The position numbers were made by a program, and so were the translations under genes. Below, piece by piece: positions 46,119-53,072 of a stretch of DNA of 64,000 nucleotides; the first letter of the stretch is position 1; every line of letters begins with the position of its first letter. This DNA is from Curtobacterium sp. MCLR17_032 (GTDB lineage: Bacteria > Actinomycetota > Actinomycetes > Actinomycetales > Microbacteriaceae). The notes beneath the pieces were generated by a model. The model was not told the DNA's origin. It made no database searches and saw only the letters and a list, made by a program, of their open reading frames with translations. Location of the stretch: contig NZ_CP126268.1 in assembly GCF_003234795.2 (NCBI RefSeq), positions 3,100,001-3,164,000 of the forward strand. Reading direction: 5' to 3'.

Positions 46119-46185
46119 CGTCGGACGGGAGGCCCGTGGTCACCGCACCACGGGCCTCCCGTCCGCCTCGCGGCAGAGACGCCGC
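46119..46185. repeat. 67-bp direct repeat, left copy (contains GGGAGGCCC terminator)
   Basis: Matches 53006-53072 base for base except one position (A versus C). The first part is a terminator hairpin (GGACGGGAGGCCCGTGGT-caccgc-ACCACGGGCCTCCCGTCC, 46123-46164); the matching CGCCTCGCGGCAG...GACGCCGC follows it. The two copies, in direct orientation, bracket the copper gene cluster. Confidence 0.92.
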
Positions 46186-46219
46186 AGCCGCGGCGGCCGG
46201 TCCCGTAAGGACGGGGCCG

Positions 46220-48463
46220 TCACGACCGACCGTAGGAGCGCAGCCGCAGGCTGTTCGAGACGACCAGCGTGGAGGAGAGCGCCATCGCTGCCGCCGCGAT
46301 CAGCGGGTTGAGCAGGCCGGCCGCGGCGAGTGGGATCGCCGCGACGTTGTAGCCGAACGCCCAGACCAGGTTGACCCGGATGGTGCGGAGCGTCCTGCGG
46401 GAGAGCTGCACGGCGTCGACGACTGCACGGAGGTCTTCGCGGACGATGATGACGTCGGCGGCCTTCATGGCGATGTCGGTGCCCTGGACGACGGCGATGC
46501 CGAGGGTCGCGGTGGCGAGCGCCGCGGAGTCGTTGACACCGTCGCCGACCATCGCGACGTGGTGTCCGTCCGCCTGCATCCGTTCGACGTGCCCCGCCTT
46601 CTCGTCGGGCAGGACACGGGCGATCACCTCGTCGACACCGACTTCCGCTCCGACGGCCGCGGCGGTGGTCTCCGAGTCTCCGGAGAGCAGGACGGTGCGG
46701 AGCCCGAGCGCCCGCAGTTGCGTGACGGCCTCGACGGCGCCGGGCCGGAGCGTGTCCTGCACGGTGAGGACCGCAGCGACCGCACCGTCGACGGCGAGCA
46801 GCACCACGGTCGCGCCGGACGCTTCCCGTTCTGCAGCGACGGCAGCAACACGGTCGCTGACGACCACTCCGGTGTCCTCCAGGAGCGCACGCCGGCCGAT
46901 GACGCAGCGCCGGCCGGCGACGGATCCGGAGGCGCCGAGGCCCGCGTGCGCGACGAAGTCCTCGACGGGCCCCGGTGCGCCGACCCGTGCGGTGGCCGCG
47001 GCGGCGACGGCCTTGCCGATCGGGTGTTCGGACGCCGCTTCGAGGGCGCCGGCGGTCGTCAGTGCGGTGTCGGCGTCCGTGCTGAACGTGTCGATGGCGG
47101 TGAGGGTCATCCGACCCGTCGTCAGGGTGCCGGTCTTGTCGAACACGACGGTGTCGACTCGTCCGCTCGCCTCGAGGGCGTCGGGGCCCTTGATGAGGAC
47201 ACCGAGCTGGCCGCCGCGGCCGACGCCGACCATGAGCGCCGTGGGCGTGGCGAGCCCGAGCGCGCACGGACAGGCGATGATGAGGACGGCGACGCCGTTG
47301 GTGATGGCGGTCGCGACGGGTGCGCCGCTGGTCAGCCAACCGGCGGCGACGAGGACGGCGATGCCGATGACGACGGGCACGAACACGCTCGTGACGCGGT
47401 CGACGGTCCGCTGCACCGCGGCCTTCCGGCGTTGCGCGTCGTCGGCGACCGCCGCCATCTGCGCCAGGCGGGTCCGGGTGCCGACCGCGTCGGCACGGAC
47501 GACGAGCCGGCCGTCCTGGACGAGGGTGCCACCGACGATCCGGTCACCGGCGGCGGTCTCGACCGGGACGGACTCACCGGTCATGGCGGACGTGTCGACG
47601 CTGGCGGCACCGTCCGTCACGGTGCCGTCGACGGGGACCCGGCCGCCGGGGCGCACGACGACGTGGTCGCCGACGCGGACGGCGCCGAGTGGCGTCGTGC
47701 GCTCCTCGCCGTCGACGAGGACCTGCGCTTCGGTGACGCCGAGGTCGCCGATGGCTTCGAGGACGTCAGCGGCGCGTCGGCGGCTGCGGCTCTCGAAGTA
47801 GCGGCCGGCGAGTTGGAACGTCACCATGCCGGCCGCGACGTCGAGGTAGATCGAGTCGGCCCCCGCGGGGGTCGTGCCGAAGCCGAGCCAGTAGCCCGGG
47901 GTGGTGGCCGGGTCGACGAACAGGGTCCAGAGCGCCCACCCGAACGAGACGACGGCCCCGAGCGAGACGAGCGTGTCCATGCTCGTGCTGCGGTGCCGCA
48001 GCCCGCGGAGCGTCGCCCGGTGGAACGGCCATGCCGCCCACGTGACGATCGGGACCGCGAGGAGGACGCAGAGCGCCTGCCACCCCGGGAACCGCCAGGC
48101 GGGCACGAGGGCGAGGATGATCGTGACGTCGCACAGCGGGATCGTCAGCAGCGCCGCGACGGTCAGGCGTCGGCGGAGCGTCGTGGTCCGGGTCTCCGCG
48201 GCTCGTGCGCTCCACGCGTCGTCGCCGGGTGTGTGCACGGCGGCGGTGTAGCCGGCGCGCTCGACCTGGGCGATCGCGACCGGGGCGTCGGCGGGTCCGA
48301 GCCCGCTGACGGTGGCGCGTTCGGTGGCGAAGTTGACGGAGGCGGTGACCCCGTCGAGCTTGCCCAGCCTGCGCTCGATGGCGTTGGCGCAGGCGGAGCA
48401 GGTCATCCCGCCGATGTCGAGCTCGAGGCGTTCTCCGACGAGGGGCGATGTGGTCGTGGTCAC
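46220..48463 (-). CDS. copA: copper-exporting P1B-type ATPase
   Basis: A 747-residue ion pump. It has one N-terminal heavy-metal domain (GMTCSAC, Cys22 and Cys25), about eight membrane helices, actuator TGES, the membrane CPCALGLATP motif (Cys-Pro-Cys, which coordinates Cu+), the phosphorylated DKTGTLT, the SEHPIGK nucleotide-binding pair and GDGVND. This is the standard P1B-1 signature for Cu+ export from the cytoplasm. Start is GTG; its stop-start overlap with the CopD-CtaG gene (GTGA) implies a coupled operon with copZ and CopD-CtaG. Confidence 0.95.
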   Translation of the reverse strand: MTTTTSPLVGERLELDIGGMTCSACANAIERRLGKLDGVTASVNFATERATVSGLGPADAPVAIAQVERAGYTAAVHTPGDDAWSARAAETRTTTLRRRLTVAALLTIPLCDVTIILALVPAWRFPGWQALCVLLAVPIVTWAAWPFHRATLRGLRHRSTSMDTLVSLGAVVSFGWALWTLFVDPATTPGYWLGFGTTPAGADSIYLDVAAGMVTFQLAGRYFESRSRRRAADVLEAIGDLGVTEAQVLVDGEERTTPLGAVRVGDHVVVRPGGRVPVDGTVTDGAASVDTSAMTGESVPVETAAGDRIVGGTLVQDGRLVVRADAVGTRTRLAQMAAVADDAQRRKAAVQRTVDRVTSVFVPVVIGIAVLVAAGWLTSGAPVATAITNGVAVLIIACPCALGLATPTALMVGVGRGGQLGVLIKGPDALEASGRVDTVVFDKTGTLTTGRMTLTAIDTFSTDADTALTTAGALEAASEHPIGKAVAAAATARVGAPGPVEDFVAHAGLGASGSVAGRRCVIGRRALLEDTGVVVSDRVAAVAAEREASGATVVLLAVDGAVAAVLTVQDTLRPGAVEAVTQLRALGLRTVLLSGDSETTAAAVGAEVGVDEVIARVLPDEKAGHVERMQADGHHVAMVGDGVNDSAALATATLGIAVVQGTDIAMKAADVIIVREDLRAVVDAVQLSRRTLRTIRVNLVWAFGYNVAAIPLAAAGLLNPLIAAAAMALSSTLVVSNSLRLRSYGRS

Positions 48464-51493: not shown

Positions 51494-52972
51494 ATGACCG
51501 CCACCGACGACCGCCCCACCGCCACCACGCCCCCGGCTGCCCCCTCGACACCGCGGTCGTCGCGGGACGGACAGCGCGGCTGGTTCGGGCAGCTCCTGCT
51601 CCGCCTGCACTTCTCCGCCGGCCTCTTCGTCGGCCCGTTCATCCTCATCGCCGCACTCTCCGGTGCCGTGTACGCACTGGGTCCGACGATCGAGCACGGT
51701 CTGTACCGGCACGAGCTCACCGCGCCGTCGGCCGCTGCGGCGAAGCCACTGGCGGAACAGATCGACGCGGCCCAGTCCTACATCGACCGGCACCACCCCG
51801 ACGACACCCTCGCCGCGGTCCGCCCGGCTCCCGAGCACGGCGCCACGACGCGGGTGATGTACGCGGAAGCGGGGCTGATGGACTCCCAGGACCGTGCGGT
51901 CTTCATCGACCCCGGTACCGCCGATGTCCGTGGTGACCTGCTCGTCTACGGCACCTCCGGAGCACTGCCGTTCCGCACCTGGGTGGACACCTTCCACCGG
52001 TCCCTGTTCCTCGGTGACGTCGGCCGGCTCTACAGCGAGACCGCAGCGTCCTGGCTCGGCGTCGTCTCCCTGGCCGGGCTCGGCCTGTGGGTGGCCCGGA
52101 TCCGGAAGACCCGAGCGAAGCGTGACATGGTCCGCCCGGCGAGGGGAGTGCGCGGCTATCGGCGCACCTCCTCCTGGCACGCCTCGACCGGCGTGTGGCT
52201 GCTCCTCGGTGCGCTGTTCCTGTCCGCGACCGGGATCACCTGGTCGCAGTACGGCGGCGCCAACGTCGACCAGCTCCGCTCCGCGCTCAGCTGGGGCACC
52301 CCGACGTTGGACACCGCACTCCCCGACGCCGGCGCCGCGCCCGCCCGCGGTGCGCACGCCGCCCACCACGCTCCAGCCGCGGCGGCCGGTGCCGGGTCCG
52401 CATCGGTGACGCCGGCGGAGTTCGACGACGTCCTCGCAGCGGCCGAGCACGCGAACATCCACTCCTCGGAGGTGCAGATCACCCCACCGACGTCGGCGGA
52501 CCAGGCGTGGACGGTCGCGGAGATCAAGCGGTCCTACCCGACCGCGGTGAACTCCGTCGCGATCGATCCGCGCGACATGAGCGTGGTGTCCGAGACGGAC
52601 TTCGACACCTACTCACTGCCCGCGAAGCTCGCCCGGTGGGGCATCGACACGCACATGGGGACGATGTGGGGACTGCCGAACCAGATCCTGCTGTTCGTCA
52701 CCGCGCTCGGCATCGCCGTGATGGTCGTCTTCGGCTACGTCATGTGGTGGCAGCGCCGGCCGACCGGTGGGCGCGTCGGGCGGGCCCCCGCCGCCGGCGC
52801 CCTCGCGAAGGCACCGTGGTGGGGCTCCGGTCTCGTGGCGGTCGGCGCGATCGTCATCGGCGCGTTCCTGCCCACGCTCGGCGTCACCCTGCTCGCCTTC
52901 GTCGTCGCCGACGTCCTCCTCACCAGCCGCTCGCGCCCGCCTCGAGCCACGCCGACTCCCCCGGGACGATGA
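51494..52972 (+). CDS. PepSY-domain membrane protein
   Basis: A 492-residue protein with four main helices and a large external domain. The first helix and following motif (LHFSAGLFVGPFILIAALSGAVYAL), a PepSY-like region (about 300-375), and RTWVDTFHRSLFLGDVGRLYSETAASWLGV match the PepSY-associated TM (PiuB-type) family. Such proteins occur with iron or copper uptake/reduction systems. A His/Ala-rich insert (AHAAHHAPAAAAG) may bind metal. It follows the DUF5134 gene by 12 bases and likely shares its transcript and control. Confidence 0.85.
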   Translation: MTATDDRPTATTPPAAPSTPRSSRDGQRGWFGQLLLRLHFSAGLFVGPFILIAALSGAVYALGPTIEHGLYRHELTAPSAAAAKPLAEQIDAAQSYIDRHHPDDTLAAVRPAPEHGATTRVMYAEAGLMDSQDRAVFIDPGTADVRGDLLVYGTSGALPFRTWVDTFHRSLFLGDVGRLYSETAASWLGVVSLAGLGLWVARIRKTRAKRDMVRPARGVRGYRRTSSWHASTGVWLLLGALFLSATGITWSQYGGANVDQLRSALSWGTPTLDTALPDAGAAPARGAHAAHHAPAAAAGAGSASVTPAEFDDVLAAAEHANIHSSEVQITPPTSADQAWTVAEIKRSYPTAVNSVAIDPRDMSVVSETDFDTYSLPAKLARWGIDTHMGTMWGLPNQILLFVTALGIAVMVVFGYVMWWQRRPTGGRVGRAPAAGALAKAPWWGSGLVAVGAIVIGAFLPTLGVTLLAFVVADVLLTSRSRPPRATPTPPGR

Positions 52973-53005
52973 CGCACTCCGCAGCGCGAGGTGTCGGCGA
53001 GCCGA

Positions 53006-53072
53006 CGTCGGACGGGAGGCCCGTGGTCACCGCACCACGGGCCTCCCGTCCGCCTCGCGGCAGCGACGCCGC
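53006..53072. repeat. 67-bp direct repeat, right copy (contains GGGAGGCCC terminator)
   Basis: Identical to 46119-46185 except one base; contains the same hairpin (53010-53051). It ends immediately before the HNH stop codon. The identity extends past the hairpin stem into sequence not needed for termination. Confidence 0.92.

Follow-up and report, generated by a model that had tools for sequence, protein, structure and literature searches.

The window analysed here is a stretch of 64,000 nucleotides from Curtobacterium sp. MCLR17_032 (contig NZ_CP126268.1), and its subject is a 6.8-kb block of copper genes enclosed by two near-identical 67-bp direct repeats. These repeats are the scar of a past insertion or copying: they represent a duplicate of a putative transcription terminator, not the end of a copper element or of a known mobile element. 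The copper block probably entered next to the terminator of an HNH-domain gene (hereafter HNH), and the entry duplicated this terminator and its spacer, leaving one copy on each side. The genome under study (3.71 Mb) is referred to as G000 and belongs to a genus set of 66 Curtobacterium genomes (G000–G065). The relevant features of the window are as follows:

46119..46185: left repeat copy, a hairpin plus a 20-bp spacer copied from the HNH side
46122..46165: left hairpin with a 19-bp perfect stem and a 6-nt loop, between the convergent ends of an ABC ATPase gene (plus strand) and copA (minus strand)
46220..48463, minus strand: copA, copper-type P1B ATPase (TIGR01511 above cut-off)
48460..50613, minus strand: CtaG-type membrane protein (PF09678)
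50510..50719, minus strand: copZ-like small HMA-domain protein (gene call and domain match)
50861..51481, plus strand: DUF5134 protein (gene call and domain match)
51494..52972, plus strand: PepSY_TM protein (gene call and domain match)
53006..53072: right repeat copy, its last base adjoining the HNH stop codon (53073-53075, minus strand)
53009..53052: right hairpin, identical to the left hairpin, between the convergent ends of the PepSY (plus strand) and HNH (minus strand) genes
53073..53708, minus strand: HNH-domain gene, the fixed edge of a variable site (gene start uncertain; query 53076-53567)

As described in the initial annotation, 46119-46185 and 53006-53072 have the same orientation and agree in 66 of 67 bases. 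The only mismatch is A at 46177 and C at 53064, and the copies are 6.9 kb apart. Weaker similarity runs on, as a repeat search aligned 46111-46198 with 52998-53085 (91% over 88 nt). The hairpin makes up two thirds of the repeat, and the other 20 bp are the hairpin-to-stop spacer of the HNH gene. Hence, the right copy comprises the hairpin (53009-53052) and the whole spacer up to the HNH stop codon. On the other side of the block, the ABC ATPase gene (end at 46094) and copA (stop at 46220) flank the left copy.

When the left copy (88 nt) was used as a blast query on G000, 84 alignments resulted. Among the 40 of 438 first-look candidates that were scored, on which the uniqueness of the extended repeat is judged, the full query matched at these two places only, and no other alignment passed query position 72 of 88. 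The 20-nt flanks of 59 hairpins of G000 (one of them, L103, counted twice) were also compared, giving 3,422 comparisons. The right flanks of the repeat pair matched in 18 of 20 positions. The sole higher value (20) came from one hairpin that had been called twice, and the next value was 16. The left flanks of the two hairpins were unrelated (9/20). The claim that the repeat reaches beyond the hairpin therefore holds for the right flank, but not for the left. A frequent extended repeat at other terminators would have been an argument against an insertion; the hairpin does occur at many terminators, but the extended repeat does not. The duplication also differs from a short target-site duplication, as it is 67 bp long and contains a pre-existing hairpin.

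The origin of the left copy can be read from the loop and the spacer. With no mismatch allowed, the loop 19-mer GGCNCGTGGTCACCGCACC was found at five places in the 66 genomes: two in G000, two in G012 and one in G021. The single G021 place adjoins HNH, and there are no copper genes at this site. The part of the spacer near HNH was also found beside HNH in G037 and, partly, in G001, neither of which has the cassette, and it is therefore native to the HNH side. The loop, too, is native there, since it is located beside HNH in G021 and G037 without copper genes, and the copy in the left repeat is its duplicate. Overall, the left repeat was copied from the terminator on the HNH side and is tied to the insertion; duplication, HNH origin, this tie and the variability of the site are all counted as observations. 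The suggestion that the copper unit was inserted was supported as well, as the unit was gained here: near relatives carry other genes at this site, and the repeat pair is present in G000 and G012 only.

The HNH hairpin of G037 (L062) shows a further peculiarity. Its loop is inverted in comparison with G000, G012 and G021 (TGCGGTGA versus TCACCGCA) and one base shorter, as if the stem-loop had been flipped.

The copper block is located in a variable site, which is bounded by HNH on one side and a tRNA gene on the other. The remaining features of this site in G000 are as follows:

40317..40389, minus strand: tRNA-Arg (CCT), which bounds the variable site on the other side
40527..42242, plus strand: HAD-type acid phosphatase-like gene (PF03767, two stretches)
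42276..42315: third family hairpin, separating the phosphatase gene from the two-component block
42356..46094: two-component system (response regulator, histidine kinase), FtsX-type permease and ABC ATPase, the left neighbour in G000 and G012

The HNH gene was present in all 66 genomes of the genus. The layout from tRNA-Arg to HNH was established for 64 of them; G049 and G065 were left out because HNH was near a contig end. In G011, G012 and G018, the tRNA-Arg was outside the stretch seen, and it was located separately for G012. The gap between tRNA-Arg and HNH ranged from 89 bp (G036) to 14,794 bp (G007). In 52/64 genomes, a family hairpin (up to three mismatches in the outer stem) started no more than 150 bp from the HNH end, and an epoxide hydrolase gene (PF06441 in G021) was found at the site in 46/64 and, separately, in G012. 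Among the nearest relatives, the tRNA of G036, G041 and G045 is directly followed by the HNH hairpin, with nothing between. The site of G001 holds the phosphatase gene and one hairpin, and that of G021 and G037 holds phosphatase, hairpin, epoxide hydrolase and hairpin, without copper genes. The site of L111 holds the phosphatase and a different block, which, read by eye, resembles a two-component system and membrane proteins.

The order in G000 is phosphatase, hairpin, two-component/ABC block, left repeat, copper genes and right repeat. In G012, it is hairpin, epoxide hydrolase, two-component/ABC block, left repeat, 4.3 kb of extra genes, copper genes and right repeat. Both repeat copies of G012 are thus at the same two positions as in G000. 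The extra 4.3 kb between left repeat and copA (L060:11323-15635) encode an SdpA-family protein (TIGR04034, E 9.3e-29), an SdpI-family protein (PF13630) and a CAAX-type protease (PF02517). Two further proteins, taken for SdpB and SdpC, had no match in Pfam. These genes may be read as Sdp-type bacteriocin-like. The initial annotation had stated that the repeats bracket exactly the copper genes; this is correct for G000, but in G012 the Sdp-type genes are enclosed as well.

The site between tRNA-Arg and HNH is a variable site that gains and loses gene blocks. The phosphatase is missing in G012 and the epoxide hydrolase in G000, and there is a hairpin at just one edge of each gap. Gain and loss at this site therefore need no hairpin pairs. 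Site-specific integration at the tRNA-Arg was not favoured here, as the variable segment is located 5' of the tRNA and the proteins scanned included no integrase.

Hairpins as general anchors of insertions and deletions were considered and rejected. When comparing G000 with G012 and G021, 6 of 19 breakpoints were within 60 bp of a hairpin (0.64 expected at random), and none of 2,000 random draws was as high, but the test is confounded by gene ends. Five of the six hairpin-near breakpoints belong to this locus, and the pair 41446/41483 stems from an internal repeat of the phosphatase gene. Clear differences without a hairpin nearby were found at 34599-35550, 50744/50763 and 55340-58258. The last is a 2.9-kb segment that is missing from G012 and G021, with neither edge near a family hairpin. 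At the tRNA edge, G036 carries a 64-bp unit repeated 15.2 times in tandem (L063:15698-16670) beside an intact tRNA-Arg(CCT). The unit consists of the 3' part of tRNA-Arg(CCT) and downstream bases, and a few partial copies were found in G001 and G021.

The genes of the copper block run outwards from a central divergent promoter region. Of the earlier name CopD-CtaG for the second gene, CtaG was retained (PF09678); for CopD, no Pfam model reached E 1e-3. No transposase or recombinase was found inside the block, whose five proteins are a P-type ATPase, CtaG, HMA, DUF5134 and PepSY, and no integrase or transposase was found among the window proteins scanned (40.5-53.6 kb).

A close copA (77–100% identity) was present in 8 of the 66 genomes and adjoined HNH in two of them, G000 and G012. 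It was located away from HNH in G011, G015, G028, G030, G035 and, in rearranged form, G002. In the five complete cassettes elsewhere, the homology to G000 breaks off close to both outer gene ends, no more than ~16 bp from the copA stop and ~50 bp from the PepSY end. These cassettes are not bracketed by the repeats: the strict hairpin was absent from the fetched flanks of G011, G028 and G030 (relaxed hairpins were not sought), and in G015 and G035 the strict hairpin was at a distance of ~3.5 and ~1.3 kb, respectively. The shortest flank seen was 2.1 kb (one side of G030).

Identity at 4-fold degenerate sites was compared between four cassette genes and two core genes only (HNH and NlpC). Between G000 and the five genomes with a cassette elsewhere, it was 55–72% for the cassette genes and 56–68% for HNH and NlpC. 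As the cassette is about as diverged as these two core genes, a recent transfer within the genus is not indicated. Between G000 and G012, the identity was 84–90% for the cassette, 90% for HNH, 77% for NlpC and 63% for the ABC ATPase (n=149). The low value of the ABC ATPase (45375-46091), directly beside the cassette, could reflect an allele replacement. A plasmid origin of the cassette was also rejected: the nearest plasmid match, a Leifsonia plasmid, covered 62% at 72.8% identity, and no record covered 80%.

The cassette of G000 differs from the others at 50720-50860. A 1.2-kb gene pair between copZ and DUF5134, found in G012 and the five other complete cassettes, is missing here. One gene of the pair encodes a Penicillinase_R repressor of the BlaI/CopY type, with PF03965 exceeding its cut-off in G011 and G012; the other encodes a membrane protein whose peptidase match stayed below threshold. 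Palindromic sites, among them TCTACAACTTGTAGA at 50808-50822, are still present in the G000 cassette, and the one PF03965 gene of G000 is located elsewhere in the genome.

Both repeat hairpins exactly match the strict pattern of a hairpin family, the palindrome GACGGGAGGC-N8-30-GCCTCCCGTC. This pattern was found at 156 places in G000, and the reversed-pattern control gave none. In a survey of 150 genomes (3 of the same genus and 147 of other genera of the family; 85 genera sampled), it was present in all three genomes of the genus (156, 40 and 40 copies) and in none of the 147 others. One 40-nt form of the hairpin occurs in 18 identical copies in G000, in 14–20 copies in each of the eight genomes that make up the clade of G000 and in 0–4 copies in the other 58. 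The 10-mer of the family, for which a reading as uptake signal was considered, occurred 233 times in 1.245 Mb of genus loci, 176 times in hairpins and 57 times singly; 200 shuffled 10-mers served as control (mean: 9.9 copies, maximum: 111). At gathering cut-offs, Rfam matched the tRNA alone in 40-56 kb of the window. Among the titles listed in literature searches, which included general papers on terminators, none dealt with this hairpin family.

Neighbour genes of the 59 hairpins were called by a simple codon-position rule, which misses some genes (e.g. the ABC ATPase of the window), and the following counts are thus approximate. Both neighbours were called for 51 of the 59 hairpins, of which 25 were between converging, 22 between co-directional and 4 between diverging genes; two were inside a called gene and six were missing a neighbour. 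When a hairpin adjoined the 3' end of a called gene, it was mostly within 60 bp of that stop (37 of 47). Both repeat copies represent G+C-rich stable hairpins just 3' of a stop codon, and the predicted fold of the 88-nt copies was −67.9 and −69.3 kcal/mol (z about −6). No T-run was found on either strand at the repeat hairpins, meaning that the U-run of an intrinsic terminator is missing. Judging by position and structure only, the family most likely represents two-way transcription terminators. As its hairpins mostly follow the 3' ends of genes, the divergent copper block is expected to be flanked by one on either side.

That the repeats are nothing but such terminators, with the additional 20-bp match being due to chance or convergence, has next to no credibility. 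The frequent position of family hairpins between converging (25/51) or co-directional genes (22 more) is in line with it. However, no other pair of distinct hairpins came above 16 in the 3,422 comparisons, against 18/20 for the repeat flanks, and the exact loop type is confined to this locus. Very unlikely, too, is an excisable unit, in which the two 67-bp copies recombine from time to time so that the copper block is lost or relocated. The direct orientation, the 66/67 identity, the distance of 6.9 kb and the patchy distribution of copper genes across the genus would fit such a unit. Yet no excised form (ABC block, one repeat, HNH) was found among the 64 genomes compared at this site, which include no second strain of the species. 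Furthermore, the enclosed content is 4.3 kb larger in G012, the cassettes elsewhere in the genus lack the bracketing repeats, and the phosphatase gap of G012 and the epoxide hydrolase gap of G000 each have a hairpin at one edge only. With 18 identical 40-nt hairpins in the genome, the repeat pair is also not the sole long identical pair. It is unlikely, though somewhat less so, that the family hairpins are in addition self-spreading or self-homogenising repeats, which would provide anchors for swaps of gene blocks. The copper block would then be a module that entered at such an anchor, and identical hairpins would have been copied between sites.

A gene conversion has a better, though still small, chance of being the explanation. 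The block would have had a left family hairpin of its own, which the HNH-side copy then replaced, using the stem common to both as anchor, and the repeats would be silent on how the block entered. The spacers of the left and right copies differ in 1 of 20 positions in G000 and in 7/20 in G012, and those of G000 and G012 differ in 3/20 for the right copies and in 8/20 for the left copies. Hence, the two G000 copies are more alike than the orthologues of G000 and G012. One spacer position points to copying within the genome (GGCAG in both G000 copies, GGTAG in both G012 copies), and no position groups oppositely. The 18 occurrences of the 40-nt form in G000 could also mean copying between sites. 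On the other hand, G000 and G012 have spacer sequence in common at both ends, which places at least one event before their split, and within-genome homogenisation is visible at one spacer position only. A later conversion between left and right copies is plausible, although the sample of positions is tiny.

Some observations also weigh against an insertion beside the HNH terminator. The arrangement was found in only two genomes and hence reflects one or two historical events. The pre-insertion state (ABC block, one terminator, HNH) was not found in the 64 of 66 genomes compared at the site. G000, G012, G021 and G037 are not separated in the tree built from the HNH side, and both one gain in G000/G012 and a gain in the ancestor of this quartet followed by losses fit. 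With one mismatch allowed, the loop 19-mer was found at 23 further places in 18 other genomes (reversed control: 2), and the link between loop and insertion therefore rests on exact matches. Finally, the differences between the spacers are not those of a simple old duplication, which points either to later copying between the copies or to separate events.

For the insertion beside the HNH terminator, the starting site would have been an HNH gene with its family hairpin and spacer in the variable stretch between tRNA-Arg and HNH. The copper block, possibly together with the Sdp-type genes still present in G012, would have entered beside this terminator. The result would be hairpin and spacer, copper genes, hairpin and spacer, and HNH. 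Homology-based recombination at the HNH terminator would be the simplest route, either as single-crossover integration of a DNA circle or as uptake of DNA carrying the same terminator. We infer this entry route, the terminator function and any later loss from the arrangements described above.

Dispersed palindromic repeats of the repetitive extragenic palindrome/bacterial interspersed mosaic element (REP/BIME) type are comparable with the Curtobacterium hairpins, which are likewise short, dispersed, mostly intergenic, palindromic and genus-limited, with identical copies. Unlike these, the Curtobacterium hairpins are single, have a variable inner stem and are located at gene ends. A strong hairpin between two converging stop codons resembles bidirectional intrinsic terminators between convergent genes. 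In contrast to the latter, the U-run is missing, a 10-bp outer stem is common to 156 strict copies, and the hairpins are restricted to one of the 85 genera sampled. The variable content between a tRNA gene and a core gene corresponds to integration hot spots beside tRNA genes, but here the inserts are located 5' of the tRNA-Arg, and the window proteins scanned did not include an integrase. An acquisition of copper-linked genes by a Curtobacterium has been described for the heavy-metal island of Curtobacterium pomorum KT1, which is about 60 kb long and partly similar to other genera (PMC12889094). In comparison, the block of G000 is smaller (6.8 kb), and at 4-fold sites it has diverged from the other Curtobacterium copies to a similar degree as two core genes.

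These results describe a metal-handling block that was placed in the chromosome without a mobile-element gene of its own. Repeats at the ends of such a block can be a by-product of insertion beside a terminator. Direct repeats that bracket a gene cluster should therefore be compared with the hairpin families of the genome before a mobile unit is deduced from them. In Curtobacterium, a genus-restricted hairpin family marks gene ends and could be used to test terminators as recombination anchors.

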